IMG/VR virus record: IMGVR_UViG_3300042896_000697 | Coordinates: 1-51,240 of that record | Strand: one strand, 5' to 3' | DNA from: a virus | Length of the DNA stretch: 51,240 nt | Shown here: piece by piece, positions 9,695 through 33,601 of the stretch | Position numbering within the stretch: the first letter of the stretch is position 1 | How the letters are laid out: every line of letters begins with the position of its first letter | Notes under the pieces: model-generated | Databases searched by the model: none | Told to the model about the DNA's origin: nothing | Seen by the model: the letters and a program-made list of their open reading frames with translations, nothing else | Position numbers and translations under genes: made by a program

Positions 9695-10673
9695 CTATCC
9701 AAAAAAATCATCAATACAATTTCTTCTTTCATAAGACCAACCAATAGATTGTAACATACCATTTAATGGATCCAAGAAAGTTTTTTCATACTGTTTATCG
9801 TAATCTACATATTGTTCTAAATCAAACTCAGGTGGAATTGAAACTGGAAATGAAATTACTTCATGTTTTAATGGATTAGGTAATTTTAAATAACAAAATT
9901 TAATATGTGCACCCTCACCAATCATTTCATATCTATTCTGAAGACCCATTTCACGAAGTTTATTGTTATATAGTATTGATCCTTTAGTGTGAATTGGACA
10001 TTTATTACCATAAATCGTTTCTGAATCAGAATACTTTTCAATACCATTTACTCCACGAGGAAACGCAATCTCTTCAACAGAATAATTTTTAAACTCAGAT
10101 TTAACCGCAGCTACAAAATCTTGAATATCACCTTCAGTTCCGTTTAAAATCAAACCAACTGAACTACGAAGTTTATCGCGAATAACTAATGGAGTTGAAG
10201 ATTTAACAACTTCAAGACCCATAATTTTTATCTTAGGTTCGTTATAAACAACACCTTCATTTTCATACACATTTAATGCATATCGTTTTTTACCAGTCCA
10301 AAAACCATTAGAACTAATACCCTCAAGTTTAAATGAAATACAGTTACGTTTTACATGAGTATAGGCTTGCAAATCATTACAACATTCATTAATAATTGGA
10401 TCAATCTTTTCTTTACAAATTTTACTTAAAACAGGAACAATTTCTTTAAATTCTTTATCAGAATAAAATTTATTAACAATAGGTTCCAATGAAAGATACA
10501 TCGAATCTGTATCTTGATAAATTACCCATGGATAATCAGCTTTAAACATTTTATCTAATTTTAATTTAACAAATTCACCAACGGAAATAATAATGTATTG
10601 ACCAGATAAAGTTACAGCTCGAGCATTTTCTAAGGTGTAATATCTAAAAAACGCATTACCCAAAGCTCCATAT
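9695..10673 (-). CDS. 43: DNA polymerase gp43, exon 2 (C-terminal)
   Basis: Second exon of the family B polymerase, joined to 10925-12462 by removal of the intron. It begins inside motif B, restoring NSL-YGALGN, and continues with AFFRYYTLENARAV. It contains motif C YQDTDSMYLSL with the catalytic aspartates. The protein ends CIDDFFG, matching the short hydrophobic sliding-clamp-binding tail of T4/RB69 polymerases. Exon lengths 979 + 1538 = 2517 bases, exactly 839 codons, giving an 838-residue enzyme (T4: 898). Confidence 0.92.
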
Positions 10674-10924
10674 CAATTATGTTCATATAAGTTCGTTACA
10701 CTTATACCGTTCTCTTATGAACTGCTAACTGTTCCCAGCTAGAGCAGACTATCTCATCAACCACGTGGGTTGCCCTGCGCTTCCACTCACTTGAGTGTAC
10801 TTCCTTTCGGAATAGTCGTTACACCTTCCTATTTCTAGGCTTGGCACGGTATTGTCCGTTCTGGATGTTCACCGTTTTCACAGAGTTCTCATTAAATATT
10901 ACTACTTAATGCGCCATATAGTTT
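10674..10924 (-). ncRNA. group I self-splicing intron in gene 43, no ORF
   Basis: 251 bases. The 5' exon ends in U (TTCGCT) and the intron ends in G, as group I introns require. P1 pairs the exon's CGCU with an internal guide GGCG across a nine-base loop. The P7 pair is visible on the minus strand as AACGACTATTCC (10809-10820) with GATAGTC (about 10747-10753). The P4 to P6 core ATACCGTGCCAAGCC resembles the T4 td intron. Splicing recreates KIAMNSLYGALGN without gap. In-frame stops in the intron mean the unspliced mRNA gives only a 518-residue truncated polymerase. No endonuclease is encoded inside. Confidence 0.9.
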
Positions 10925-12462
10925 AGCGAATTCATGGCAATTTTAAATGCCATTTGCTCATTATTAAATTTTGAGATTAAATTTGAAATTCGTTTGTATT
11001 CTTTTTTATCATAATCTTTATTAGATTTTAAGGCTTCTAACTCAGATTCATATTTTAACATTGTTGATTTTGCTTCTTTACGTTTTTTCATATAAACGTC
11101 AATCAACTCAGGAATCATACCAACTTTATCTTTACGATACATAGCTCCATTAGCTGCAACAGCATATTCTTCTGGAAAAGTATATTCTTTATCTAATAAA
11201 CCTTTAGTTGTAATATTACCATCAAACATACCAGTAAAAGTTTCCAACGAAATATTCCATGTTTGTAAAATACTTGGATACAAACTAGTGGCATCGAAAC
11301 TAGCAATATCGCGATAAAATCCAGGAACTGGTTCGCGAACGTATGCACCTTCAAACTGTTCGCTTTTACTATTTTTAGATCTAGGCGGAATTACTATTTT
11401 ATTGGCTTTTAAATGATTAAAAATAATTGCATCCCACATTCTAATTTGGCTATAAATATCACCATAATTAATCTTAGCCAAATAACTCATGGTTAAGCAC
11501 AAATCAATAAGTTTTTCTGAATCTTCTAACTCATCAACTCTATCGCAATCGATAATGTTATAATCTACAAACATATTCCAACCATTGGTATAAAAATCTT
11601 TAAATGTATCAAATTCACTATGATCTAATTTACCATGACCTAAAACTAACTGAGCTACAGTTTCTAATCGTAAATTTTCTGGTTTTTTCTGTCCGTATTT
11701 TTTATAAAGATCTCGAAAGTCAACAACGTTAACTCCAACAATTTCAAATAGAGTTGTTGGTTTACCAAAATCGTCTTTAGTTTTTCGTTCTTTAATCCTG
11801 TTCCATGGACTTAAATCCTTAACTCTATCTTCGCTAATAATTTTAGCAATACGATTAACAAGATATTTTATATCGAACCCTTCAACGTTCCAACCTGTAA
11901 TAATATCAATATCGCTATGTTTCCAGAAATCAACAAAACGGTTCAATAAAGAATACTCATCATCACATAAAATAAACTCACAGTTTTCTTTTTTATTTCC
12001 AGTATATTCTCTAGACATAAAAGTTGTAGAGCGTTTTGTTTTCATGTTCTTCATAGTGATAAGAAGAACTTCTTCTGCTGCTAAATCAGGAGATGGAAAA
12101 CCGGAATTTTCTGTTGCAGTTTCGATATCCAATACATATGAATTAATGTATTCTATATCCCAATCAATAACTTTTGGAAATTGATCGGAGATAAATTGGA
12201 CATCGAATCCGATATCACCATAAATTTCAAAATTATCTACATCTTCGTATCTTTTAATAAAATCACGGGTTTCTTTAATATCTCCAGGTTGGATTTCTTC
12301 AACATATTGACCGAAAAGATTTTTCCAATCACTTTGTTTATTTGATTTAACATAAACTTTAGGCGAATATTCATATTTGAACTGAACTCGCTTACCATTT
12401 TCAATCCCTTTGTATAAAATACTATTCCCTAATATAGATACGTCAGTGTAGAATTTTGTCAT
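10925..12462 (-). CDS. 43: DNA polymerase gp43, exon 1 (exonuclease and palm)
   Basis: Encodes the N-terminal domain, the 3'-5' proofreading exonuclease and the first part of the polymerase. Exo I is YVLDIETA, Exo II ITGWNVEGFDIKYL, and Exo III DYNIIDCDRVDEL. Motif A is FDATSLYPSIL, with the aspartate that binds catalytic metal. The exon stops within motif B (KIAMNSL). It follows the Sm-like gene with no gap. RegA, encoded nearby, represses early mRNAs in T4. Splicing is needed for a functional enzyme. Confidence 0.93.
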
Positions 12463-15228: not shown

Positions 15229-16170
15229 CTATTTGAATTCTAAGTCAACCATACATTCTGTAAAAAAAGCCATTAAATTAATCTCATGGTCAATAACAAA
15301 AGCTGTTTGATATTGATATCGACCAATTAATAACACTAACTGGGGTATTGAATTTGGCTTTAAAATATCATACATTGAATCATACATCTTGCGATAAATT
15401 GTTTGACTATCGTTATCTAAGTTATCAACAACCCACTTTCTAACATCAGCAAATGATTTTTCTTTTAAACCTTTGATTAATGGTGTTAAATTTACATCAG
15501 AAACTTGTGATAATAAACCAGCATCAATAACACCACCCATTGCATAACGCTGAAGTTCATTTAAGACTCTACGGTTATCTGGATAATATTTAGCAATAAC
15601 CTGAGCTACAACTTCTTTGTTATATTCAACTTTTTCTTCATCTAAAATCCAACAAACTCGTTTAAAAAACTGAGCCATTAATTTCTGTTTATCTTCTTTG
15701 GAAACTTTTACATCAATAACAGAACATCTTGAATGTAGCGGTTCAATAATACGGTTTTTATAATTACAAGTAAAAATAAATGAGCAGTTACGAGAAAACT
15801 CTTCAATTGCATTACGCAAAGCTGGCTGCAACGAATTAGCATTTAAATAATCTGCTTCATCAATAATAATTACTTTACGTCCGCCAGATAAACTAACTGA
15901 AGATGCATAATTTTTAATTTTACCACGAAGAACATCAATACCATTTTCATCAGAACCATTAATGACAATATAGTCACAATCTGCTTCTTTACATAAGGCT
16001 TTTGCAATAGTTGTTTTACCAACGCCAGCTGTACCGGAAATTAATAAATTAGGTATTTTGTCTTGAGCAACAAATTCTTGAAATGAAGATTTGATTGATT
16101 CAGGAAGAATACAATCGGCAATTTTTTCTGGTCTGTATTTTTCGCACCATAACATATGCTCACGTATCAT
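15229..16170 (-). CDS. 44: clamp loader ATPase gp44
   Basis: 313 residues from the start at 16170 (T4: 319). Walker A GTAGVGKT is at about 46-53, Walker B IIIDEAD at about 102-108, and the SRC sensor at about 148-150. An upstream in-frame extension to 16221 exists but its residues are non-conserved; the ATG at 16170 sits nine bases after GGAG and gives the family N-terminus (LWCEKYRPEKI). AAA+ ATPase that loads the sliding clamp. Confidence 0.95.
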   Translation of the reverse strand: MIREHMLWCEKYRPEKIADCILPESIKSSFQEFVAQDKIPNLLISGTAGVGKTTIAKALCKEADCDYIVINGSDENGIDVLRGKIKNYASSVSLSGGRKVIIIDEADYLNANSLQPALRNAIEEFSRNCSFIFTCNYKNRIIEPLHSRCSVIDVKVSKEDKQKLMAQFFKRVCWILDEEKVEYNKEVVAQVIAKYYPDNRRVLNELQRYAMGGVIDAGLLSQVSDVNLTPLIKGLKEKSFADVRKWVVDNLDNDSQTIYRKMYDSMYDILKPNSIPQLVLLIGRYQYQTAFVIDHEINLMAFFTECMVDLEFK

Positions 16171-16229
16171 AATATAAACTCCAAAATAAAAATAATAAAA
16201 AGGGTGACCGAAGCCACCCAAAAATCAAT

Positions 16230-16695: not shown

Positions 16696-17379
16696 TTATT
16701 TACCAAATGTTGAACTGGTTTCAATAGTAATCCAATATTTTAATTCAGCTGTAGTAGAAGTCCATGCCGAAATACCTTTACTAGAAATCTCAACCGTATA
16801 GGTATCTGAAATAACTTTTAAATTTTCAGCTTTAAAAACTAATTTAAATACTTTACCTTCTGGGTCAACATCTGACATCTCTAATGAATTAACATGACTT
16901 GAATCATTTGCTTCATCAAAAGTAACTAAAGATACAGTAGTTCCATCAGATTCAACTGCTACATGAGGCGCACCAAGAACAGTTGCAGTTTTTAATACCC
17001 ATTCAAAATCTTCTTTAGAGAACGTAAATTTAACATCTGGAGCTGGAACATTAGGAAGTTTTTCTGGCGGAACAACAATCATTGATTGATCAGCAACACG
17101 ATATTTAATTTTACTACGACCACCGCGACCTTTAATAATAACATGTTTATCATCAAATTCTAATTCTGGACCTTCTTTAAATAAAGAAGCAACTGATAAA
17201 AAGTTATTTAAGTCATAAATACCGAAATCTTGGGGAATTGTATCTGAGATAGTTGCAACAGATAAAATATTTTTACCTGGACTCATTGTTGAAACTGTAG
17301 AACCCTTTCTAAAGAAAATACCTTGATTAATATGAGCAAAGTTTTTTAGAATTGCAGTTGTTTCTTGAGAAATTTTCAT
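16696..17379 (-). CDS. 45: sliding clamp gp45
   Basis: 227 residues (T4: 228). Trimeric PCNA-like clamp: ISQETTAILKNFAHINQGI at the N-terminus, then PQDFGIYDLNNFLSVASLF, with the end ELKYWITIETSST. It tethers the polymerase and, with gp55 and gp33, activates late promoters. Several proteins in this window end with short hydrophobic tails suited to bind it. Transcription likely enters from the promoter at 17588-17616 through two tRNAs. Confidence 0.94.
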   Translation of the reverse strand: MKISQETTAILKNFAHINQGIFFRKGSTVSTMSPGKNILSVATISDTIPQDFGIYDLNNFLSVASLFKEGPELEFDDKHVIIKGRGGRSKIKYRVADQSMIVVPPEKLPNVPAPDVKFTFSKEDFEWVLKTATVLGAPHVAVESDGTTVSLVTFDEANDSSHVNSLEMSDVDPEGKVFKLVFKAENLKVISDTYTVEISSKGISAWTSTTAELKYWITIETSSTFGK

Positions 17380-17418: not shown

Positions 17419-17492
17419 TGGAGCGGGATAAGGGAATTGAACCCTCACTAGAAGAATGGAAATCTTCTGTTCTACCATTAAACTAATCCCGC
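17419..17492 (-). tRNA. tRNA-Gly (TCC)
   Basis: Seven-base acceptor GCGGGAT, anticodon loop TTTCCAT giving anticodon TCC, TTCAATT T loop, CCA encoded. Located between gp45 and the CAT tRNA. Confidence 0.93.
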
Positions 17493-17498
17493 AATATT

Positions 17499-17575
17499 TG
17501 GTGCCCCTCCTAGGACTCGAACCTAGAACCAACCGATTATGAGTCGGACGCTCTAACCATTGAGCTAAAGGGGCA
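17499..17575 (-). tRNA. tRNA with CAT anticodon, probably Ile2 (lysidine)
   Basis: Anticodon loop CTCATAA, CCA encoded. The body (AATGGTTAGAGC, ACTCATAATCGGTTGG) resembles E. coli tRNA-Ile2 more than elongator Met, so it likely decodes AUA after host lysidine modification. Elongator Met cannot be excluded. Confidence 0.9.
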
Positions 17576-17587
17576 AATTACATTACT

Positions 17588-17616
17588 ATTATATAACGTA
17601 ACTATGTATTAGTCAA
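17588..17616 (-). promoter_or_regulatory. sigma70-type promoter TTGACT-17-TATAAT
   Basis: Minus strand, exact 17-base spacer, just upstream of the CAT tRNA. Would transcribe tRNAs CAT and Gly and then gene 45. Confidence 0.7.
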
Positions 17617-17619
17617 GAA

Positions 17620-17802
17620 TTATTTTTTCTGAACTTTTTTGAAGAAATTATCTAATTTTTTATCACACTGTTTATTTGAATTTATCAAAGATTCAACTTT
17701 TGCAGTTAAAGCAGCATGATCATCCTGTAATTTAGCTAAATCGCCGGAACTAGCGCAACCTGTTACAAATAAACATAAACTAACTAAAAATAAAGTTTTC
17801 AT
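17620..17802 (-). CDS. small lipoprotein (possible o-spanin or Lpp-like)
   Basis: 60 residues. A lipoprotein signal: MKTLFLVSLCLFVTGC, with lipobox VTGC and Ala at +2, predicting acylation and outer-membrane sorting. The mature part is a short coiled coil (LAKLQDDHAALTAKVESLI). Shine-Dalgarno GAGGAAG precedes the ATG. It lies inside the tRNA cluster. Possible roles are the outer-membrane half of a spanin, superinfection exclusion or an Lpp mimic; none is proven. Confidence 0.7.
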   Translation of the reverse strand: MKTLFLVSLCLFVTGCASSGDLAKLQDDHAALTAKVESLINSNKQCDKKLDNFFKKVQKK

Positions 17803-17824
17803 AACTTCCTCGTATTAAATTAAT

Positions 17825-17901
17825 TGGCGGGCAGGGAAAGACTCGAACTCTCATCTTTGTATTTTGGAGGCACATGTTTTATCCAATTAAACTACCTACC
17901 C
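17825..17901 (-). tRNA. tRNA-Trp (CCA)
   Basis: Acceptor GGGTAGG/CCTGCCC with one G-U pair, anticodon loop CTCCAAA, T stem GAGAG/CTTTC, discriminator G and encoded CCA. The anticodon stem has one C-A mismatch at its base. Confidence 0.9.
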
Positions 17902-17906
17902 AGTAT

Positions 17907-17981
17907 TGGCGTCGCTACGGGGAATCGAACCCCGCTTACAAGAATGAAAATCTTGTGTCCTAACCGATAGACGATAGCGAC
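17907..17981 (-). tRNA. tRNA-Glu (TTC)
   Basis: Acceptor GTCGCTA/TAGCGAC, anticodon loop TTTTCAT, CCA encoded. Strong cloverleaf. Confidence 0.93.
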
Positions 17982-18005
17982 AATTATTTTTTAAAACCCA
18001 TTAGG

Positions 18006-18079
18006 GGTGACTAGTGGGACTTGAACCCACAAAATCTCGAATCACAATCGAGGACGTCTACCAATTCCGTCATAGTCAC
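18006..18079 (-). tRNA. tRNA-His (GTG), no encoded CCA
   Basis: Acceptor GTGACTA/TAGTCAC, anticodon loop TTGTGAT, variable loop ATTTT. Discriminator C73 as in tRNA-His. The 3' flank is CCT rather than CCA and the -1 base is T instead of the G needed for histidyl-tRNA identity. Confidence 0.85.
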
Positions 18080-18096
18080 ACCTAATGGGTCTTATT

Positions 18097-18180
18097 TGGT
18101 ACTCTAGGGGAGATTCGAACTCCCAAGCCTCGCGGCAGCGGTTTCTAAGACCGCCGTGTATACCATTCCACCACCAAAGC
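18097..18180 (-). tRNA. tRNA-Leu (TAG)
   Basis: Long variable arm (TGCCGCGAGGCTT) and anticodon loop CTTAGAA; acceptor GCTTTGG/CTAGAGT has three G-U wobbles; CCA encoded. Confidence 0.88.
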
Positions 18181-18189
18181 ATTTTTATT

Positions 18190-18264
18190 TGGCTCCAAAG
18201 GAGGGATTCGAACCCCCGACCTACGGATTAACAATCCGCTGCACTACCGCTGTGCTACCTTGGA
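18190..18264 (-). tRNA. tRNA-Asn (GTT)
   Basis: Acceptor TCCAAGG/CTTTGGA, anticodon loop TTGTTAA, TTCGAAT T loop, CCA encoded. Its 5' end supplies the TAG stop codon of the 18255-18770 gene. Confidence 0.92.
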
Positions 18265-18770
18265 ATAAAACATATTTTCTCAAATATTTTTATTGCATTA
18301 TTTTTGATAATCCATTCACCGCATTCTTTTGTTATATCATGGTGATTTAACAAATTTTTTTCAGTAAGAGATCGATTTAATACAAAATCATATTTAACAA
18401 CTTTAAAATTTCTATAAGGATCATATGTTTGATATGAATCTAATCTAGAATTTAAATCTATAGTCATACCCAATTTATAATGATCTGTAAATTGGGGATT
18501 TTCTATCATATAAACTAAACCGGATTTTAATTGATTAAATTTTGCATTTCTTTCAAAATTTAATTTTAATAAGGTTAATCCAGCTAATTTTCGGGCAAAT
18601 CTAGCATTAGATAATGTTTTCAACCCATTTCCAGATTTTCCAAATAATTCTGAATACATTTTAATATATTCTCGTAAATGAGATTCTTCTATCTGGAAAA
18701 TACCATCAAAGGGAATGACATTTAATTTAATCAATTTATCCAACACCGCTCGTTCAAATTCTTTAATCAT
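18255..18770 (-). CDS. GIY-YIG/T5orf172-type protein, stop inside tRNA-Asn
   Basis: 171 residues. The C-terminal half matches the T5orf172/GIY-YIG nuclease fold: GLVYMIENPQ, YKLGMTIDLNSRLDSYQTYDP with the second-strand K and L, then FKVVKYDFV and a late Glu (LTEKNLLNHH). The N-terminal 80 residues are helical. The stop codon is the TAG at tRNA-Asn positions 8-10, so tRNA processing would cut the mRNA. It could be a homing-type or repair nuclease; role unknown. Confidence 0.6.
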   Translation of the reverse strand: MIKEFERAVLDKLIKLNVIPFDGIFQIEESHLREYIKMYSELFGKSGNGLKTLSNARFARKLAGLTLLKLNFERNAKFNQLKSGLVYMIENPQFTDHYKLGMTIDLNSRLDSYQTYDPYRNFKVVKYDFVLNRSLTEKNLLNHHDITKECGEWIIKNNAIKIFEKICFIPR

Positions 18771-18772
18771 AA

Positions 18773-19384
18773 TTAATTATTTACAATTACATCTAATATT
18801 TTTAACTCTAATTCCGGTAGAGTTCCATTATTGTCAATTATATAGTCAATATGAGGATTTCCATACCAATCGTATTCAGATTTATGCATATTTTGCGATG
18901 CTGCATAAGCATCAAATACAGATTTATCTAACGAATCAAGATAACCGTACCAGTTAGGTCGTGTTTCTTTTCTATCAATTTGAATAAATACAGCTCCAAT
19001 AGATTTTAAGAAACTAATCTCGTTTTTAAATCTAACATCAGTAATAACTACATTATCATACTGTTGAATTTTTCGCTCAAGAGAATCAACCCAAATTCCA
19101 TCAAGTAAATTTTCTCTACAAACTTCTGTACCAAAATACTGTAGTATATATCTAGGTGTTATAGGTTTATTAAATTTAACCGACCAAAAAGTATCAACAG
19201 TTTCACGAAAAACTCTAGATTCTTCGGTGTCACCTTCTAATAAAGCTCTATCCCAACCAAAAATAGAAGATACTGCATCTTTTAATGAGCCAGCAAAAGA
19301 TAGAGCAGTAAAATTATTTTCTACTAAAATATCGCCAGCAGTTCCTTTTCCGGAACCAATAAAACCAAGTAACCCAATAATCAT
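18773..19384 (-). CDS. 1: deoxynucleoside monophosphate kinase gp1
   Basis: 203 residues. P-loop GFIGSGKGT at 7-15. The segment LSFAGSLKDAVSSIFGWDRALLEG matches T4 gp1, followed by TPRYILQYFGTEVCR and VVITDVRFKNE (Walker B-like). gp1 phosphorylates dNMPs, including modified bases in T4 (hydroxymethyl-dCMP), so it would help supply any modified nucleotide. Confidence 0.9.
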   Translation of the reverse strand: MIIGLLGFIGSGKGTAGDILVENNFTALSFAGSLKDAVSSIFGWDRALLEGDTEESRVFRETVDTFWSVKFNKPITPRYILQYFGTEVCRENLLDGIWVDSLERKIQQYDNVVITDVRFKNEISFLKSIGAVFIQIDRKETRPNWYGYLDSLDKSVFDAYAASQNMHKSEYDWYGNPHIDYIIDNNGTLPELELKILDVIVNN

Positions 19385-19400
19385 AATATATCCTAAAATA

Positions 19401-20222
19401 TCAGGAAAGTAAAGACAAATATTTATTCATAATATTTGATAAATCTTGTTTTAATAATATTCTTCCATGATATTTAAAACTGTCTCGCAATGTTTGATAA
19501 CTTTCAGCATTTTCAGATAAATGTTCATTAAAGGAAATTAATAACTTTTCTTTAGTTAATCCAGTTTGACTATTATTATCAGTATGTTGGCCACCAGCCA
19601 TAGCAAGCCTATCGCTAAGAGGAACTCGCGTTTGAATCTGTAGCTTTCTAGCTATAAATTCATCAGTCATAGGAGCAAAACCATAATTAAAAATAATAAA
19701 TCTTTCTGTATTGATTAATCTTCTATAATGTCTGCCTTGATTATATCTAACCGCATTAGAATGCATTAAACGAGAACCTCGATGTTCCATAGTATTAGGA
19801 ACATCCAAACCAACCTTAAGAACATCCCATAAAGGAACGTCATATGACAAAGTATTTGATTCTCTAGATTCCAATTCATCAACAAAATATAAACATGGAA
19901 TATATAATTCTTCTTCTTTTGTTGCGCCTAAACTAGAAAAGTCGCCTATTAAAAATTCAGTTGTATTCAAGCAAACTTTCCAACCAGTAAGATTTGCTTC
20001 AATATCCATTACTTCACGATCTACGTCACTAGCACTAAAGTCTGGGTTTTTGCTGTTAACTATTTCCCAAGTAGGACAAATTTCCTTAATAATTTCAACG
20101 CTTTTATCTGTACTAGCATAATTAATCAAAATACCATGATCAAAATACTTTTTATGGTGATTCAACCACCATGGAAGTAAGTATTCTTCATTATAAAAAT
20201 GAGAAATAATAGTTTTTTTCAT
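19401..20222 (-). CDS. glycosyltransferase, GT2/GT92-like
   Basis: 273 residues. The N-terminus KKTIISHFYNEEYLLPWWLNH is the typical beginning of a family with FYNEE and WWLNHH motifs. It is followed by HGILINYASTDKSVEII and SDVDREVMDIE, and later TEFLIGDF as the DxD-like region. It lies between gp1 and tRNA-Pro and is unconnected to the main sugar operon. It could modify a surface glycan; target unknown. Confidence 0.7.
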   Translation of the reverse strand: MKKTIISHFYNEEYLLPWWLNHHKKYFDHGILINYASTDKSVEIIKEICPTWEIVNSKNPDFSASDVDREVMDIEANLTGWKVCLNTTEFLIGDFSSLGATKEEELYIPCLYFVDELESRESNTLSYDVPLWDVLKVGLDVPNTMEHRGSRLMHSNAVRYNQGRHYRRLINTERFIIFNYGFAPMTDEFIARKLQIQTRVPLSDRLAMAGGQHTDNNSQTGLTKEKLLISFNEHLSENAESYQTLRDSFKYHGRILLKQDLSNIMNKYLSLLS

Positions 20223-20237
20223 TTATCACCTAAAAAT

Positions 20238-20314
20238 TGGTCTCTCATGACGGATTCGAACCGCAGACCTATCCGCCCCAAACGGATCGCTCTACCAGAC
20301 TGAGCTAATGAGAG
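20238..20314 (-). tRNA. tRNA-Pro (TGG)
   Basis: Acceptor CTCTCAT/ATGAGAG, anticodon loop TTTGGGG, TTCGAAT T loop, CCA encoded. Confidence 0.92.
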
Positions 20315-20315
20315 T

Positions 20316-20390
20316 TGGAGCCTCTTCCCAGAATCGAACTGAGATCTGAAGATTACAAGTCAACTGTAATAGCCATTATACTAAAGAGGC
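20316..20390 (-). tRNA. tRNA-Thr (TGT), mismatched anticodon stem
   Basis: Acceptor GCCTCTT/AAGAGGC, anticodon loop CTTGTAA, CCA encoded. The anticodon stem GTTGA/TCTTC has two U-U mismatches, so stability may be reduced. Confidence 0.8.
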
Positions 20391-21616: not shown

Positions 21617-22214
21617 TTTTACCTCTCTTTTTCCTAATTATGTGACTCTTTACAAATTTCTTAATTTTTTTATTTAGAGCAGTTTCAGCTCGTTCTAGGA
21701 CAAATTTAGAAACTTTAGTTTTAAAATCAATTCCATTTAATCTATCTATTCCTTGTTGAATAATTCTTGAAGTTAAACCATCGAACCTAGTCATCTTTTC
21801 ATTTCCTTCGAAATCTTGATATGAAACAATAACTGTAGTAGGGCGTTTAACTGCCATTAATAAACCCATATTACTTAAATCAGATTCTTCTAATAAAATT
21901 TCGCCATGCGATTCAATAACAATAGGATTGAAAAATGCAACAAAATTATCTGCAACTCCAGCAACCAATACTTTATGCTCTAATCCGCATTGATTTGCGG
22001 CAATTCCATATACTTTATGAAATTTACATGTTGCAATTAACTTTGAAGCAATTTCGCTAGAATTTAATTCAGTATTAGTAAAATCGAAGTGTTTTAACTT
22101 TGTAGTTAAAACTGGATCTTTTTGATCACATAATTCATAACCAAGAAATTGAGGTTCAGGCACTGCTGCAGCCTGAGAAACTACATCAGCAGTATTATAT
22201 ATAAACTCACTCAT
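21603..22214 (-). CDS. peptide deformylase homologue lacking all catalytic residues
   Basis: 203 residues from the ATG at 22214, which overlaps the gene 46 stop by ATGA. The deformylase framework is evident: GIAANQCG (70-77, equivalent to GLAAPQxG), FFNPIVIESHG, and IIQQGIDRLNG (151-161, equivalent to QHEIDHLNG). However, the EGCLS cysteine is aspartate (ESDLS, 110-114), HE is QG (154-155) and the last His is Arg158. All three metal ligands and the catalytic Glu are gone, so it cannot be an ordinary deformylase. A C-terminal basic tail follows. It may bind nascent chains or ribosomes instead. Confidence 0.8.
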   Translation of the reverse strand: MSEFIYNTADVVSQAAAVPEPQFLGYELCDQKDPVLTTKLKHFDFTNTELNSSEIASKLIATCKFHKVYGIAANQCGLEHKVLVAGVADNFVAFFNPIVIESHGEILLEESDLSNMGLLMAVKRPTTVIVSYQDFEGNEKMTRFDGLTSRIIQQGIDRLNGIDFKTKVSKFVLERAETALNKKIKKFVKSHIIRKKRGKNGKN

Positions 22215-24184
22215 TGTATAACCTTCATCTTTGAAAAGTTTTTTATTTTTTCGAACTTTAATGTACAATCGAATTTATCCGATACTTGATCAGATTTGTG
22301 ACTAATAACAAATATATTTGTACTTTTATCAACTGATGCCAATAAATTCATAAAAACATCAGTTCCCGTTGAATCGAGGCTAGAATCCATTATTTCGTCT
22401 AAAATCAATAAATTGGTATTTACCGAATTTTTTAATCTAGCCAGTTGTCTAAATGAAAATAAAATAGCTAAATCTAATCGAGTTTTTTCACCCTCAGAAA
22501 AATTTGCATAAGTAAATTCATCTCTATGACGCGATTTAATTACTTCTTCAAAATTTTCATTAATATTAAAATTAACAAAGAAATCTAATTGAGCCAAATA
22601 CTGATTTATATATTTGTTTAAAATAGGAAGATACTGTTTAATTATACGAGTTTTAATTCCTCCATCCTTTAACATAACAGAAATAAAATCATAATAACTT
22701 TTTTCATTTATATATTCTTCATATTTTTCAACATAAACATCTAATGATTCAATTAATTCTTGCAGTTTATCTGAACCATTATCAGTGGTATTTGATGAAT
22801 CTTTTAGTTGATCAATTTCATTAGAAACTAGTTTTATATATTTTTGCGCAGAAACAATATTTGAATTTTTCTCTGATAAAATACTTGAATTCTTTAAAAT
22901 TTTAGCGTTTATCTTGGATATAGCAACTAACCTATCAGTAGCAACCTGTAATTCCTTAGATAATTTGTTTTCGCCATCAACTAATTCCGTTAATTTAGTG
23001 CTATTTTTTTCAATAATTTCTTGTTTAAACGCAGAATCAATCGATTGTCGGCATGTTGGACAATTATCATTTGAATGATAGAATGTGTTATCTTTTTCTA
23101 CCTTAGATATATTATCGCGCAATTTACCTTCAATTAATAATAATTTATTTTTCTTTTTTTCAACGACATCCATATCAGAAATTTCCTGACCTAGCCGTTG
23201 GTTTTCAGACAATAACTCAGAGATAGTTTGCTGTAAATCTTCAACTTCAACACAAGTATTTGCAATTAATTCTTTTTTTCTAAGAATTAGTTCATCAGAA
23301 ACTTGATTGGTACGTTTAATATTTTGTTTTTGAAGTTCTATTTTGTCTTTAAATAATTCAATATTAAATTTACAATCTTGAACAGTTTCTTTAATTCCAG
23401 ATACTTTATCTTTAACAATAGAATTCATATTAGAGAAAATTTGAATATCAAGTAAATCTTCAATAACAGAGCGTCTATCTCCAGCTGATAACTGCATAAA
23501 AGGAGTATATCTAGCTGACCCAAGAATAACAACTTGAGTAAAAGATTTATAACTCATTTTAAGTATATATCTTTCTAATTGTTCTTGATAATCTTTTACT
23601 TTTGCGTCTTGGCGAACTAAATCGCCATTACAATAAACTTCAAATATATTGGGTTTAATACCACGAATAATTTTATATTTGTTTGGACCAATAGAAAACT
23701 CAACTTCAGTAACCAATTCAGATTTATTAATTGAATTTATTAAACCGCTTTTGTTAATTTTTCTAAAAGGTTTTCCATAAAGGGCAAAGGTAATTGCATC
23801 AATAAACGTTGAATTGTGTGATACCAAACCATTAGCATAAAATTCCTTAACATCGGCAACTTGTAAATCAAAAAGATCTTCCTTAGTTTTTAAGTGTTTA
23901 ATCAATTTAATTTTCACAGGACCGTTTTCTGTGAATAAAAAATCACCAACAGATAAATTTTTACTAGCAACCCAATTACAATCATTGCTTAACATAAGAT
24001 GATCTGGAGAAACTTTTAGGATTTCTCCAGATTCAGATTCAAGCTTTATCACATCAGATTTTTTAGCAGTTAAAGCTGCCCCTTCAATACATTTATATCC
24101 GAAACGAGTTTTTACAGAAAGCGTTCCTATTAAATTTGGATATTTTTTATAAAATTGTACAACATCACCAACTGTAGTTTTCAT
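22211..24184 (-). CDS. 46: IntC-gp46 C-terminal fusion (split intein half plus gp46 nuclease subunit)
   Basis: 657 residues. Residues 1-124 are the C-terminal intein (SPDH block B at about 59-62, LFDLQVADVKEFYANG block F and GLVSHN block G). Ser125 begins the C-extein STFIDAITFALYGKPF, the rest of Walker A. The gp46 body has the zinc hook CPTC, signature FSEGEKTRLDLAIL and Walker B LLILDEIMDSS. After splicing with the 25288-25488 product it would form a 573-residue gp46 (T4: 560), the Rad50-like partner of gp47. Confidence 0.9.
   Translation of the reverse strand: MKTTVGDVVQFYKKYPNLIGTLSVKTRFGYKCIEGAALTAKKSDVIKLESESGEILKVSPDHLMLSNDCNWVASKNLSVGDFLFTENGPVKIKLIKHLKTKEDLFDLQVADVKEFYANGLVSHNSTFIDAITFALYGKPFRKINKSGLINSINKSELVTEVEFSIGPNKYKIIRGIKPNIFEVYCNGDLVRQDAKVKDYQEQLERYILKMSYKSFTQVVILGSARYTPFMQLSAGDRRSVIEDLLDIQIFSNMNSIVKDKVSGIKETVQDCKFNIELFKDKIELQKQNIKRTNQVSDELILRKKELIANTCVEVEDLQQTISELLSENQRLGQEISDMDVVEKKKNKLLLIEGKLRDNISKVEKDNTFYHSNDNCPTCRQSIDSAFKQEIIEKNSTKLTELVDGENKLSKELQVATDRLVAISKINAKILKNSSILSEKNSNIVSAQKYIKLVSNEIDQLKDSSNTTDNGSDKLQELIESLDVYVEKYEEYINEKSYYDFISVMLKDGGIKTRIIKQYLPILNKYINQYLAQLDFFVNFNINENFEEVIKSRHRDEFTYANFSEGEKTRLDLAILFSFRQLARLKNSVNTNLLILDEIMDSSLDSTGTDVFMNLLASVDKSTNIFVISHKSDQVSDKFDCTLKFEKIKNFSKMKVIQ
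23813..24184 (-). other. C-terminal split intein (IntC), 124 residues
   Basis: Begins at the ATG of the gp46-C gene and ends with the His-Asn pair of SHN. The +1 residue is Ser. Block B has SPDH in place of TxxH; block F and G motifs are typical. Confidence 0.9.
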
Positions 24185-25236
24185 AATAAATTTTGCGTGT
24201 AAGTTTCAATAAATTGTTTATAGTCGTTTTTATTAGTCAGAATAACTGAACCAAAAGTAGATTCTTTATATTTCATTTTTTGTATATATACATCATCTGT
24301 ATAGCCAGCTAATTCCACCCAAACATTAGAATTAATCAAATAAAAATCGCACCGCATTTTAGAGTTTGGATAATATTTTTCTATTATAAAATCTACACCA
24401 TTTACAAACCCATTTTCAACTAACATATAGTAAAATAATATTTCATTAGAAGAACGAAGTAATTTATTTTCAACTTTCATCGAATACAAATAATTACCAT
24501 GTTTACCTTTTAGTAATATTGGAGCATCAGTAGATTTAAACTCTAAAAACGTTCTTAACCAAGAATCAATATTTTCGGGTTTATCGTTAACCAACTCAAA
24601 ATAATACGACTTTAAGTATTTCTTCTTAAAATTAACCATAGACAAATATAAATCAAATTCATCTAAATTTTTCAATATAAAGAGTTTTATATCCTCTAAA
24701 GAATAAAAAATTTCGCAATTTCTTGAGATTAAATTTTCTACAAATTTTTGTCTACCAAAAATTTCTCCATATTTTTCAATAAATGTAGTTAATTTAAAAG
24801 TAGATTTTTTAGAATTTATTAGATTAAGTTCATCAACAGATTTAGAATTAAGTGTTGAATTCCATTTTTCTTGCCTATCGATCCAAATAGATAAACCTAC
24901 ATCATATCCATATTTCTGTATACATTTTTCTCTAGAAAAAGTTGATTGAATTTCAGAAACGCGTAAAATCGCTTCCTGAGTCGATAAACCTTTATATTCC
25001 CAGTATTCTATACATCTAGGAGAAAGATGTTTAAAACTTTCTTTAGGCTTGTTTGAATTGGTTTTAGCACCCTTTTTTTGATGTTCCAACCTCATTTCTT
25101 CAGCTTTTTCCAAATCCACGTTAAATTTATGAATATAATATTCAACGTTAGTTGGCCTGCGAATTTTTATTTGATACTTAGCTTCTTCAATAGAATATCC
25201 TTTTTGTATCCAGGTTTCCAATTTAAACGCAGACAT
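24181..25236 (-). CDS. PD-(D/E)XK (Vsr-like) homing endonuclease between intein halves
   Basis: 351 residues. The N-terminal two-thirds carry repeated helical DNA-binding modules: WIQKGYSIEEAKYQI and YWEYKGLSTQEAILRV. The C-terminal domain is nuclease-like: RSSNEILFYYMLVENGF, RCDFYLINSNVWVELAG, with an Asp followed by Glu and Gly as in PD-(D/E)XK/Vsr folds. Its stop overlaps the gp46-C start (ATGA). A late promoter precedes it by 31 bases. Its position between two halves of an intein-split gene is the 'fractured gene' arrangement described for phage-derived split inteins. Confidence 0.75.
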   Translation of the reverse strand: MSAFKLETWIQKGYSIEEAKYQIKIRRPTNVEYYIHKFNVDLEKAEEMRLEHQKKGAKTNSNKPKESFKHLSPRCIEYWEYKGLSTQEAILRVSEIQSTFSREKCIQKYGYDVGLSIWIDRQEKWNSTLNSKSVDELNLINSKKSTFKLTTFIEKYGEIFGRQKFVENLISRNCEIFYSLEDIKLFILKNLDEFDLYLSMVNFKKKYLKSYYFELVNDKPENIDSWLRTFLEFKSTDAPILLKGKHGNYLYSMKVENKLLRSSNEILFYYMLVENGFVNGVDFIIEKYYPNSKMRCDFYLINSNVWVELAGYTDDVYIQKMKYKESTFGSVILTNKNDYKQFIETYTQNLL

Positions 25237-25266
25237 AATTACACCCCTATTTACTTAATATAATTA

Positions 25267-25274
25267 TATTTATA
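25267..25274 (-). promoter_or_regulatory. late promoter TATAAATA between the gp46 halves
   Basis: Exact octamer 31 bases before the endonuclease ATG. It would express the endonuclease and the IntC-gp46 part late, while the gp46 N-part relies on the upstream gp47 transcript. Confidence 0.65.
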
Positions 25275-25287
25275 ATTTTTAAATGGT

Positions 25288-25488
25288 CTAGGAAAGAAAA
25301 TCTTTAAATAATTTTTCTATTTCAGGATTATCAAATAACACATCAATTTCTGTAGATTTATGCAGGCATTTGCCTTGCCCGTTAATTCCAGTGGATAAAG
25401 TAGTTCTATCTTTATTTAATTCAATTTCAGTAAAGTTATTTCCATAGGAAAGAAAGTTTTTAAACCGGATTGTTTCAAAAATTACCAT
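25288..25488 (-). CDS. 46: gp46 N-terminal fragment fused to IntN
   Basis: 66 residues. Residues 1-40 are the gp46 N-terminus: VIFETIRFKNFLSYGNNF, ending in the Walker A start GINGQGK. Residue 41 is Cys, the first residue of the intein. The remaining 26 residues (CLHKSTEIDVLFDNPE...) form a very short N-intein. The start overlaps the gp47 stop (TAATG). Confidence 0.88.
   Translation of the reverse strand: MVIFETIRFKNFLSYGNNFTEIELNKDRTTLSTGINGQGKCLHKSTEIDVLFDNPEIEKLFKDFLS
25291..25368 (-). other. N-terminal split intein (IntN), 26 residues
   Basis: Starts with the nucleophilic Cys (CLHKSTEIDV, block A) directly after Lys of the Walker A loop and ends KDFLS. Unusually short; similar in size to the 25-residue IntN of the AceL-TerL split intein. 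Confidence 0.85.
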
Positions 25489-26552
25489 TATTCAACCGCC
25501 ATTGCTTCAGTATATAAATTAGACATCATAGTCTTCAATTTGTTTTTATCTAATTCTTGTTGATTAATACTATCAATATATTTGTAAGTAATTGTTAATG
25601 TATCATCAGTTTCATCAACATCCTCATCAATTTCTAAATCAACTACATCTTCAGTAATTGATACATCTATAGGGTTATTCGCATAAACTTGATCGACAAA
25701 TAAATCAAACAAATATGGATTAGTTTTGGCCTTAACTTGAATCTTAACATATTTACCAATTACGTTAGATAAAAATTCTTTATCAAGATAACTGGAATTA
25801 ATGACATCACTAGATCCAGAATCATCATAATCCATCTTATAGAAAATTGAATTTGGATTAAGTACAGTTTCCAATTCCCTAGTTTCTAAGTCAAAAACTC
25901 TAAAACCTTTTGGATCGGCATAATCTTGCCAAGTCATCTCATAAGGAGTCCCTATGTACTCGATATTCCCTCTCTTAGACGCGTGATGATAATGACCGGA
26001 TAATACCCTTTCATAATTAGAAAACGCCTTAGCGGACAATCCATGCTCCGATAGGATACTACTTTGGTACATCTTAAAACCTTCTATTTCAAAATGCCCA
26101 ACACAAACAGTAGAAGTATCTTGTTTAATAAAATTTAAACATTCTTGATAATTTTCTTTACAAATCCATGGAATAATAGAAATTCCATTAAGAAGTTTAG
26201 TTGGTTCTTTTACAACAGTTACATTTTTAAATTGTGTTAAGAATAACCCAGAACTACTAATACTCAATGATTCTTTATAAAAGAGGTCGTGATTTCCTAA
26301 TAGCGTAGTTAATTGTATATCCAATTTATCAAATCTAGAAAAGAAATATCTTTTTGCTTCATCAAGAGTATAATGGTTAGAATATTTACGTCTATCAAAA
26401 ATATCACCTAATTGAATAACGTGTTTAACATTATTAGCAATTAAATAAGGAAAAAATATATCAGTATAGAATTTATCAAAAAATTCATGAAAATGTTGAC
26501 TATCCCCGCGACAACCAAAATGCGTATCACCTAAAAATACAATTTTACTCAT
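25488..26552 (-). CDS. 47: recombination nuclease subunit gp47 (SbcD/Mre11-like)
   Basis: 354 residues (T4: 339). Calcineurin-like phosphoesterase motifs: GDTHFG (8-13), GDIFDRR, GNHD and GHYHHASK with metal-binding His and Asp. It works with gp46 to resect DNA ends for recombination-dependent replication. Gene order 47-46 is as in T4. Confidence 0.94.
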   Translation of the reverse strand: MSKIVFLGDTHFGCRGDSQHFHEFFDKFYTDIFFPYLIANNVKHVIQLGDIFDRRKYSNHYTLDEAKRYFFSRFDKLDIQLTTLLGNHDLFYKESLSISSSGLFLTQFKNVTVVKEPTKLLNGISIIPWICKENYQECLNFIKQDTSTVCVGHFEIEGFKMYQSSILSEHGLSAKAFSNYERVLSGHYHHASKRGNIEYIGTPYEMTWQDYADPKGFRVFDLETRELETVLNPNSIFYKMDYDDSGSSDVINSSYLDKEFLSNVIGKYVKIQVKAKTNPYLFDLFVDQVYANNPIDVSITEDVVDLEIDEDVDETDDTLTITYKYIDSINQQELDKNKLKTMMSNLYTEAMAVE

Positions 26553-27217
26553 TAATCCTCCAAGAAAGTTTCAATTCCTTTAGCTTTTTTCTTTTTCTTC
26601 GCTACAGGACTTTTAGTGCTTTTTTTGAATTCAGTATCTTCAAATTTTTGAATAAAATCATACATATTATCATAAACTTCAATTTGTTTAATTTGACCTT
26701 CACCAAGTTCCAATAACTCAGCTTCATCAAGAATACCGAAATTTTCTGTTGCTTTATATTTTATATACTGTTGTTTTTTTTCTTTTTGGATCCTACGAAC
26801 AAAACACCACCAAAGAATCTGAGTAAAATAAGCAAAAGGATTTTTAGTTTTTGCTGAATCAAAATTTTCAAAATACATTAAACAGTTTTCAATTCCATCA
26901 GCAATCATTTCATCTTTATATGAATACCCAAAGAAATTAGGTCTACGAGCTAATCCCTCTGATAATTTAACGAAACATTCTCCAATATAATTTGGAATTC
27001 TAGGTTTAATTTTTCCTTCTTCTTTTGCAAGTGCGCAATCAGCTTTATATTTTTCTAATGCAGCGCAAAAATCAGCATTATTAATATATTCTCTGGTAAC
27101 TTTTTTTCTTTTTACTTTAGCAACAACGGGTTTTTCTTCTGGAAGATCTTCTAATAAAGAAGGTATTTCTTCAGTAAAATCTGGGACGTCAGCAAAATCA
27201 AATTTTAATTCTTTCAT
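26552..27217 (-). CDS. 55: late transcription sigma factor gp55
   Basis: 221 residues (T4: 185). The central region matches T4 gp55: CFVKLSEGLARRPNFFGYSY, MIADGIENCLMYFENFD and NPFAYFTQILWWCFVRRIQKEKKQQY, a sigma region 2 that opens TATAAATA promoters. A basic stretch precedes the short acid-hydrophobic tail GIETFLED, which fits the clamp-binding tail that lets gp55 use gp45. Its own promoter is at 27254-27282. Confidence 0.94.
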   Translation of the reverse strand: MKELKFDFADVPDFTEEIPSLLEDLPEEKPVVAKVKRKKVTREYINNADFCAALEKYKADCALAKEEGKIKPRIPNYIGECFVKLSEGLARRPNFFGYSYKDEMIADGIENCLMYFENFDSAKTKNPFAYFTQILWWCFVRRIQKEKKQQYIKYKATENFGILDEAELLELGEGQIKQIEVYDNMYDFIQKFEDTEFKKSTKSPVAKKKKKAKGIETFLED

Positions 27218-30521: not shown

Positions 30522-31940
30522 ATGGTAAAAGTAGTAGTTTTAAAACCGGAAGAGGTAACTCCAAGACCCGATTTGGTTGGTAAATGGCTTGACGAGAGTC
30601 ATTATAAAATATTAGTTGAAGACGATTTGGATGTATATCTTCCTCCAGATTGCGCAGATTTTACTGCCGAGGAAAACTGCGATAATAATATGGAATGTAA
30701 TTCTTGTACAAAAGGATTATCTGAAAAAAATATCGTGTTTAAATTTCGTAAAAACTTTTTCACTAAAGAAGAAGCTGATGCTGCTTATGCTGGTTTACGA
30801 GATGCAGCTGTTGAAACTCAAAATCGCGGAATGGCTGGTGGTCCAAGAACTGCTACATGCGCAGGAAGAGAATGGGTTACTGATGAACAATTTGACTTAT
30901 TAGAATTCTTTGCATATAAAAATTCTACTTCAGTATTTGGTGGATATACTCCAAAAGTAGATGTTGATTTAATTAGAGCAAAGTATAAAAATTTAAAATC
31001 TGATGATAGCCGTGGTGTTGTTTGGTTAACTGAGCAAATTAGAGCTGACCAATTTGTATTTAATGATTTTATTGATAAATTATGTACATTAACTATTGAT
31101 GAAGCAAAATCTGAAGCTCAACGTGTATTAAATAAATTAATCAGCAAAACAACCTATGCTAATGTTGTAAATTCAGGTATTGCTGGTTGGTACGATAGAT
31201 ACCCTAGAATTCCTTTTGGTAGACCAACTACATATACAAGAGATAACCTAGATAAGTTTGTTAAATCTTATCCATTTTTACAATCTTTATCTAAAGGTTT
31301 TAAAGATATGTTACCATGGCGTTATGGTAATCAAAAACGTGCTGCAGAATCGATCGATCAAAGATTTGTTGTACCGGATACTCCATTTACGACAATTACA
31401 GTAAATAGAGACTTTAGAACAGCAGGTCATTATGATCCTGCGAATATGGAAAACGGGTTTGCTAATCTTTGTGTAATTAGCAATAATGACGACTATTCTG
31501 GGTGTTATTTGGTATTCCCTGAAATTGGATATGCAGTTGATATTAGACCTACTGATTTATTATTAGTGAACAATCAAGCAGGTTTACACGGCAATACTGA
31601 AATGATAAAGAATGATTCAAATTCAGAAAGAATTTCTATTATAGCTTTTTTTCACGAAAAAATGTTAGAACTTGGTTCTTATGATTATGAAGATGCAAGA
31701 AGAGAATTTGTTGATAGCCGCAGATTAAATCCAAATCACCCAGACCAAAGATATCGTTGGAATGGCATTACTCCAGGAATGTGGGCTGATACTCCAGATA
31801 AAAACTATAATTATTCTGCAGCAAAAGAATGGTATAATTTTTTAAAAGCAAAAGGTGACGTCGGAGAAAAATGGTTAATTGAACGTCACCCTTGGTTAAA
31901 ATCTGCAAACGAATGTAATGGGTTAGAAGATTTCTTCTAA
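30522..31940 (+). CDS. TET/JBP-family 2-oxoglutarate/Fe(II) dioxygenase
   Basis: 472 residues. The C-terminal double-stranded beta helix (about 290-380) has TTITVNRDF, the iron ligands GHYDP (His303, Asp305), [19 protein letters not shown] (His356) and [10 protein letters not shown] (Arg370 for 2-oxoglutarate). TET/JBP enzymes oxidise the 5-methyl of pyrimidines in DNA (5mC in TET, thymine in JBP). The first ~70 residues contain a CxxC pair (CNSC). The protein ends GLEDFF, a possible clamp-binding tail. The next plus-strand gene is a TET-associated glycosyltransferase. Confidence 0.85.
31923..31940. repeat. palindromic overlap of two convergent stop codons
   Basis: TTAGAAGATTTCTTCTAA: eight-base complementary arms around TT. 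Plus strand encodes LEDFF-stop of TET; minus strand encodes LEEIF-stop of the GIY-YIG gene. Confidence 0.85.
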
Positions 31941-32645
31941 AGAAGTTAAATTAAGGTTGGGAAAATCTTGTATCTTTCCAACCTTAATACATTTCCATCC
32001 ATTTTGGTGTAATTTTATCCCTCTTGATACATTTAACATACCGCTATAATTTAAATTTAATTTCTTGCATATTTGTTTTAACCCTAAAATAAAATAATTG
32101 TTTCCATTAGGGGAAATTATATTATAAATTTTTCTATGCGCTAAAGCTGAATTTTCTATAGCTTGTATTGACCTTTTTCCTGCTGCATTAGTGTTTTTTA
32201 AATTTTTCCCAGTTCCATATGTATTACCGATCATTCTTTTTGCTGTATTTTCTTTTTCAATATCAGATATTATTCTATTTTTTTGTCCTATAGATATTTT
32301 TTTACGAATACATGCTGATGGATTTGATGTCCCATCTCCGCCATCAGTTCTATTTAATAGAATTCCTGTTCCTAAATCTTTTCTTCCATACCATTTAATT
32401 AATTTTCGTTCTATAGCTAATGCACCAATTTCCGTTAAATTAGTTTCAACAAAAACTATATAATTTTTGTCTTTAGGAACAGGAACTTTTCCGTGTTTTT
32501 TAAATGCTCTATTTTTTATACCTTTTCCTATATAATATGGCGTGCCGCTTTTTGCTGTTATTGAATCAATTGTTCTTATGTATGCATAAACATAATAGTT
32601 TAAGGTAAATTTATTTTTATTTGTATAAATATTTTTGCTGGGCAT
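31923..32645 (-). CDS. GIY-YIG homing endonuclease
   Basis: 240 residues. N-terminal [34 protein letters not shown] (about 36-54) with the catalytic Tyr and Arg, then Glu in [15 protein letters not shown]-terminal NUMOD/HTH-like region: [20 protein letters not shown] and NGWKCIKV. The 3' end overlaps the TET gene on the opposite strand by 18 bases. A late promoter lies at 32754-32761. It has inserted between TET and its partner. Confidence 0.8.
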
Positions 32646-32681
32646 TGATATTCTCTATGAATGTTAAAACGAATGTTTAGA

Positions 32682-32721
32682 GCTTATAGATCTGCCAGGA
32701 TCGTGATAAGCATTTTTTTTT
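32682..32721 (+). terminator. intrinsic terminator past the GIY-YIG gene
   Basis: Hairpin with GCTTAT/ATAAGC outer arms and GATC/GATC inner arms, followed by nine T on the plus strand. It ends plus-strand transcription, most plausibly that of the TET gene, whose 3' end is 740 bases away. Confidence 0.75.
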
Positions 32722-32723
32722 GC

Positions 32724-32752
32724 TTTACAATATTAAAATAATATAGTATAAT
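32724..32752 (+). promoter_or_regulatory. sigma70-type promoter of TAGT gene (TTTACA-17-TATAAT)
   Basis: Plus strand; -35 TTTACA in GCTTTACA, 17-base spacer ending TATAG, -10 TATAAT. Starts immediately after the terminator T-run. Confidence 0.75.
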
Positions 32753-32753
32753 A

Positions 32754-32761
32754 TATTTATA
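32754..32761 (-). promoter_or_regulatory. late promoter TATAAATA for GIY-YIG gene
   Basis: Exact octamer on the minus strand, adjacent to the plus-strand -10, so the divergent gap controls both directions. Confidence 0.55.
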
Positions 32762-32791
32762 TTATTTTTAGTTAAAATTAAAGGGTAAATT

Positions 32792-33601
32792 ATGAAATTG
32801 AATATTGCAATTCCTTCGTATAAACGATCTGATACGCTTAGAGATAAAACTTTAAGTGTATTGGAAAAATATAATGTAGATCCAAATACAGTAACAATCT
32901 TTGTTGCTAATGATGCCGAAAAGACCGCATACGAAACATCACTAAAAGATAACATCTATAATAAAAATATTGTTGTAGGTGTTGTTGGTATGGGACCAAT
33001 TAGAAACTTTATTAGAAATTATTATGATGAAGGAGAATTTGTTGTAAATTTTGATGATGATTTATCAAGTATTATGCGCAAAGCTCCTGCTGATGAAAAG
33101 AAAATGGAGCCGATTGAAGACATACATAAAGAAGTATTTGAACCGATGTATAATATCATGCGGGAGAACGAAAATATGCTCTGTGGAGTCTATGCAGCGT
33201 CGAATGCATTTTTTATGAGTTATACCCCTAAGACTGGTTTATATTACTGCATTGGGTCGCTGTGGGGCTGCATTAACGATAAACATCAAGATCGTATGGT
33301 TCAATTATGCGATAAAGAAGATTTTGAGCGAACTCTTCAACATTATGTTCTTGATGGTTCAGTTTCACGATTAGATAATATTACTGTTATATCCAAATAT
33401 TATACTGAAGATGGAGGAATGCAAGTTGAGCGAACTCTTGAGCGTATTGATAAAAGTGCTGATGATTTAGTTCGTAGATTTCCTGATTTGTGTACGAAAT
33501 ATATTCGCGAAACTACAGGTCATGCTGAACTACGTTTACGAGATACTAGTGGAGGTAAATATCAAAAATCCACGTCTTTTGGTTTAGATAGTTTTTTCTA
33601 A
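32792..33601 (+). CDS. TET/JBP-associated glycosyltransferase (TAGT family)
   Basis: 269 residues. The opening LNIAIPSYKRSDTLRDKTLSVL and TVTIFVANDAEKTAYE match the TET/JBP-associated glycosyltransferases known in phages. The metal motif is VVNFDDDLSS (DDD at 88-90). Such enzymes transfer sugars to hydroxymethyl bases made by TET/JBP enzymes. It ends FGLDSFF, nearly the same as the TET tail. The next gene starts on its stop codon (TAATG). Confidence 0.82.
   Translation: MKLNIAIPSYKRSDTLRDKTLSVLEKYNVDPNTVTIFVANDAEKTAYETSLKDNIYNKNIVVGVVGMGPIRNFIRNYYDEGEFVVNFDDDLSSIMRKAPADEKKMEPIEDIHKEVFEPMYNIMRENENMLCGVYAASNAFFMSYTPKTGLYYCIGSLWGCINDKHQDRMVQLCDKEDFERTLQHYVLDGSVSRLDNITVISKYYTEDGGMQVERTLERIDKSADDLVRRFPDLCTKYIRETTGHAELRLRDTSGGKYQKSTSFGLDSFF

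Follow-up and report, generated by a model that had tools for sequence, protein, structure and literature searches.

Both DNA-modifying enzymes of a T4-like phage, the TET/JBP-family dioxygenase TET and the TET-associated glycosyltransferase TAGT, end in hexapeptides that are very probably clamp-binding motifs of the gp43/gp55 type, which points to DNA hypermodification tethered to the sliding clamp. The window, that is, the whole stretch of 51,240 nucleotides that we analyzed, is a 51-kb fragment of the phage genome and encodes gp45, gp44, a split gp43, gp41, and gp55. A preliminary description of this DNA had read the C-terminal tails of TET, TAGT, the DNA polymerase, and gp55 as given in Table 1 and had assigned them to the clamp-binding type. 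The four tails were exact on re-reading of the sequence, and the proposed type was strongly supported by sequence comparison, namely, by conservation of the tail, its tracking of gp45, its covariation with the polymerase tail, its spread to nonhomologous enzymes, and a switch to an end of the beta-clamp type.

Table 1. Positions in the window of TET, TAGT, their tails, and the replication and late-transcription proteins discussed
Feature	Coordinates	Strand	Evidence
TET/JBP-family 2OG-Fe dioxygenase (TET), 472 aa	30522..31940	+	PF12851 E=1.1e-24; phrog_24024 E=1e-130
TET C-terminal clamp-binding-like tail GLEDFF	31920..31937	+	sequence; low-confidence end of AlphaFold model
TAGT, TET-associated GT-A glycosyltransferase, 269 aa	32792..33601	+	PF20691 E=2.2e-11; D88-D90 invariant
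TAGT C-terminal clamp-binding-like tail GLDSFF	33581..33598	+	sequence; AlphaFold disordered, pLDDT <50
DNA polymerase gp43, C-terminal part	9695..10663	-	phrog_262 positions 527-852, E=1e-106
Polymerase tail CIDDFFG	9698-9718	-	C-terminal end of gp43 C-terminal part
DNA polymerase gp43, N-terminal part	10906..12462	-	PF00136 + PF03104
gp55 late sigma factor	26552..27217	-	phrog_234 E=1.4e-54
gp55 tail GIETFLED	26555-26578	-	C-terminal end of gp55
gp45 sliding clamp, proposed partner of the tails	16696..17379	-	PF09116 + PF02916; phrog_223 E=8e-69; T4 gp45 structure 1czd E=1.7e-22
gp44 clamp-loader subunit	15229..16221	-	phrog_168 E=6e-123; PF21328

The window TET contains the catalytic H-x-D...H arrangement of PF12851, its residues H303, D305, H356, and R370 are invariant among 33 homologues, and the PF12851 profile also matches human TET2 structures. 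In the DLP_6, Cr30, and S-CBWM1 records, the annotation of the TET dioxygenase reads SNF2 DNA repair protein. Judged by its profile match and the invariant Asp-rich D88-D90, the window TAGT is a member of PF20691, and its assignment to GT-A is by profile. Both genes lie on the strand opposite to that of the replication and gp55 genes, with a GIY-YIG-like gene between them, and an HNH-type homing endonuclease then follows. The GIY-YIG-like gene (31923-32645) is antisense to the last 18 bases of TET, and the end of this gene reads SLEEIF. Among relatives, an 852-base gap between TET and TAGT, as in the window, goes with the 472-aa TET, and adjacent TET and TAGT genes go with a different TET 3' end (460 aa), as if the GIY-YIG gene had arrived together with co-conversion of the TET 3' end. 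Elsewhere in the window, gene 43 consists of two open reading frames (ORFs) (9695-12462), whereas it is intact, with 838 aa, in a 126-kb relative; gp46 (22211-25488) is apparently interrupted directly after Walker A by an intein-like sequence (PF14890) that itself contains another ORF (24181-25236); and nine tRNA genes are clustered at 17419-20390.

The motif [LIV][DE]x[FL][FLIMY]x{0,4}-end, defined from the polymerase and gp55 tails, matched 4 of the 60 window ORFs, which are exactly the polymerase, gp55, TET, and TAGT, and the same four proteins were the only matches among the 144 ORFs of the 126-kb contig, which is the closest long relative. The chance rate, estimated from randomly truncated phage proteins, was 0.58%, so that ~0.35 matches would be expected for the window. 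Of 1,614 other proteins encoded at related loci, 32 matched, and many of these are modification enzymes themselves. In the AlphaFold models, the body of TAGT is predicted with high confidence and its tail, residues 262 to 269, as disordered; the end of TET has a pLDDT of 71 and then 53, and its disorder is less clear than that of TAGT.

The C termini of homologues had been set beforehand as the comparison that could refute the proposal, and here the tail proved to be conserved. The first homologue searches found it in 36 of 37 TETs and in 31 of 31 TAGTs. TET identities range from 44 to 95%, and the tail is kept though the region preceding it is exchanged and variable in length; it persists even in homologues in which the ~50 residues ahead of it are unrelated, as in an end that reads ...RRFGNSLDNFF. 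Moreover, across 30 TETs the five core codons are written in 29 different nucleotide forms, yet the encoded residues remain L/I-E/D/Q-x-F/L-F, and this combination of diverse codons with constant residue classes points to selection on the protein. Within TAGT, the tail state changes at least four times on the tree, and TAGT sequences are therefore not independent samples.

To a large extent, the tail also follows the clamp. gp45 is present on 30 of 44 related records. On gp45-bearing contigs, the tail was found in 30 of 32 distinct TET C termini and in 9 of 9 distinct TAGT C termini, whereas on contigs without a detected gp45, many of which are fragments, it was found in 16 of 34 and 17 of 33, respectively (Fisher P = 4e-5 for TET and 0.008 for TAGT, with kinship ignored). 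As a marker of the T4-likeness of the fragments, gp23 was informative only in part. Tail-less forms came nearly all from contigs where the gp45 search came up empty, and the complete gp45-less phages Acadian, Altadena, HTVC112P, and P12024L have a TET or TAGT without the tail. S-CBWM1, in which gp45 was not found, is mixed, with a tail-less TET and a TAGT whose end, LEDLLP, fits the motif. The counterexamples are tail-less TETs on two gp45-bearing contigs, L042 and L247. On the 305-kb contig L042, TET, the polymerase, and the amino acid:DNA transferase (ADDT) are all without the motif, and from these C termini its clamp interaction must differ from the usual type. The TET of Cr30 is truncated and ends ..GATLF.

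Other enzymes encoded near TET carry the same tails, including a second TAGT group and the nonhomologous GT-B glycosyltransferases (PF00534) and ADDT (PF18724); the GT-B relative had zero matches among cultured phages. Downstream of TET, proteins of ~220 aa with weak acetyltransferase similarity end in SLEEFL on four records (L204, L212, L031, and L035). In Ackermannviridae-type phages, thymine is hypermodified via a 5-hmdU kinase and transferases (PMC6449724), and here the tail type differs and is phage specific, yet it is common to the polymerase of the same phage. In the Vibrio phage D504, the polymerase ends in ARKLW, ADDT in TRKLW, the kinase-family proteins HMUD2 and HMUDK_hel in TKKLW and TKRLW, respectively, and gp33 in TRKLF; an [RK]LW end occurs in only 5 of ~204 ORFs, namely, the polymerase, ADDT, HMUD2, HMUDK_hel, and a 99-aa protein. 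In CBA120, the corresponding tails are VNLLSMM (polymerase), VNLMTLL (ADDT), VSLLGLL (HMUD2), and INLLEKM (HMUDK_hel), and all three enzymes are among the five of 207 ORFs whose ends most resemble that of the polymerase; among the tails compared, the polymerase VNL motif is absent from CBA120 gp33 and gp55. Likewise, the Cr30 polymerase has DLSSLF and its TAGT has DLSKLF. Across seven divergent phages, with tails entered by hand, the pairing of each enzyme tail with the polymerase tail of its own phage was the best of 5,040 permutations. Small proteins encoded near DNA ligase in D504 (L483, 6592-6891) and CBA120 (L501, 28731-28943) also end in the tail of their own polymerase and, from these ends, are possible clamp adaptors.

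Some gp45-less phages have a different end in the same position. A Q..[LIM]F end was found in 12 of 1,892 proteins, compared with 0.24 expected, and all 12 come from genes that immediately follow TET in gp45-less phages, which are partly related to one another (records L079, L357, L359, L361, L363, L364, L366, and L377). The carriers are seven TAGT-like proteins (six of them over the Pfam cutoff or close homologues of such proteins), one N6/N4 methyltransferase, one P-loop kinase, and three members of a 151-aa family of unknown function. None of 867 ORFs of gp45 phages has a Q..[LIM]F end. Set against the bacterial beta-clamp consensus, Q-aliphatic-x-[LM]-[FL] (PMC11139829), all 12 ends keep Q..[LIM]F, with position 2 often a nonaliphatic T, Q, or E. 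TAGT appears from its C termini to carry, in gp45 phages, a tail of the gp45 type and, in some gp45-less phages, a putative tail for the host beta clamp.

By analogy with the tails of gp43, gp55, and gp33 (PMC2988020, PMC7892883), we infer that the flexible tail of TET or TAGT docks in a hydrophobic pocket of the ring formed by the phage gp45; each enzyme would thereby be tethered to a ring around freshly replicated duplex. TET would then oxidize a pyrimidine at its 5-position, and TAGT would attach a sugar there, both while sliding with the clamp. gp45 is expected to be a trimer with three equivalent sites, which could hold both enzymes at once, and modification would precede the encounter of restriction enzymes with bare DNA. 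Binding to gp45, simultaneous occupancy, timing, and the substrate base are all put forward as parts of this model, which our data fit equally with a fork-bound or a free-sliding clamp. With regard to the substrate, a search of 50 TET/TAGT records, including the window, yielded no C5-methyltransferase (PF00145), and this family was accordingly dropped as a candidate tail carrier; neither the window nor two long relatives contained a match to the thymidylate synthase and dCMP hydroxymethylase queries. TET may act on T or on a cytosine that has been methylated in another way. The lack of PF00145 despite the presence of TET, together with the frequent company of ADDT, hints that the product of TET in DNA may be 5-hydroxymethyluracil. 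More broadly, we consider it likely that, as a general rule, phage hypermodification pathways are built on the sliding clamp as a postreplicative modification toolbelt, for which dioxygenase, GT-A, GT-B, ADDT, 5-hmdU kinases, and methyltransferase would have acquired tails independently, matched to gp45 or to the host beta clamp. It is still an open question how phages can modify almost all target bases at the speed of replication and leave no bare DNA to restriction; a removable six-residue tail on each enzyme makes this question directly testable. The tail also provides a sequence signature for finding new phage modification enzymes.

The tails may bind the clamp while tethering plays a minor part, for example, by concentrating the enzyme on the DNA of the phage instead of that of the host, with modification mostly distributive and uncoupled from the fork. 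This reading is a weaker version of the clamp-tether explanation, with which it overlaps, and we regard it as a serious contender, albeit with chances somewhat below even. In T4, the interaction of the alpha-glucosyltransferase with gp45 is real, yet promoter and translation strength mainly set the alpha share (PMC13216743). The glucosyltransferases of T4 and the T2/T6-like ones of the Acinetobacter phage AB1I1M lack such a tail, and the GTs of LuckyBarnes have none either. However, selection keeps the tail in nearly all gp45 phages and has retuned it with the polymerase tail. It is improbable that the tails bind some other shared hub (SSB/gp32, the clamp loader, RNA polymerase, or the replication compartment) also touched by the polymerase, gp55, and gp33. 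Acidic-hydrophobic tails do resemble SSB-type tips, and the D504 polymerase has its KLW end in addition to an internal VNLFAL stretch; this end could serve a partner other than the clamp. Nevertheless, the C termini of gp43, gp55, and gp33 are experimentally established gp45 ligands (PMC2988020, PMC7892883), the KLW tails of D504 are basic and in this differ from SSB tips, and gp45-less phages change to a motif of the beta-clamp type. Chance or low-complexity likeness of hydrophobic C termini, for which the shortness of the motif and its rate under random truncation could speak, has a negligible probability, given that both enzymes carry the tail, that it is conserved across ~45 to 95% identity with diverging codons, and that it covaries with the polymerase tail. 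It is just as implausible that the TET tail is a by-product of the 18-base antisense overlap with the end of the GIY-YIG gene, since the tail SLDNFF is kept where there is no room for that gene (on L007 and on the 126-kb contig, where TET and TAGT are ~8 bases apart).

Clamp-binding motifs (SCBM) of T4/RB69 gp43, gp55, and gp33 bind gp45 and are interchangeable (PMC2988020, PMC7892883), and T4 ligase is likewise a known carrier (PMC7892883). Like these motifs, which in the T4 record read SLDFLFG (gp43) and SLDFLYEAND (gp55), the tails described here are short hydrophobic/acidic C-terminal ends on a variable linker. By sequence, the window tails show the features of an SCBM, being placed at the extreme C terminus on a linker predicted outside the fold, in a phage with its own gp45, and covarying with the polymerase. 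They differ in their carriers: the known ones are the polymerase, late-transcription factors, and ligase, whereas here they are TET, TAGT, and other DNA-modifying enzymes. A DNA-modifying enzyme of T4, the alpha-glucosyltransferase, likewise binds the clamp of its phage (Sommer 2004), as a pull-down has confirmed (PMC13216743). However, it is an unrelated GT-B enzyme, clamp binding is not the main determinant of the alpha-glucosylation level (PMC13216743) and has little effect on the alpha share, and its C terminus, FKEQFDIITK, is without the motif, which excluded it as a carrier of the same tail. The preliminary description had known of no precedent for tails on TET/TAGT pairs, and the nonsubscription literature that we searched likewise mentions no clamp tail on TET, TAGT, ADDT, or 5-hmdU kinases; the precedent of T4 alpha-glucosyltransferase and gp45 had been missed. 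The QxxLF ends of TAGT-family and neighboring proteins in gp45-less phages resemble the bacterial beta-clamp motif QL(S/D)LF, which, however, is a ligand of host DnaN, not gp45, and several of the phage tails have a nonaliphatic second residue. Phage TET/TAGT and ADDT/5-hmdU-kinase cassettes comprise the same enzyme families and gene neighborhoods, but the papers searched describe no clamp tail there. In eukaryotes, DNMT1, which carries out maintenance methylation, is tethered to PCNA by a short motif, an N-terminal PIP box. The proteins are unrelated and the position of the motif differs, but the phage enzymes would share with DNMT1 the tethering of a DNA-modifying enzyme to the clamp via a short motif.
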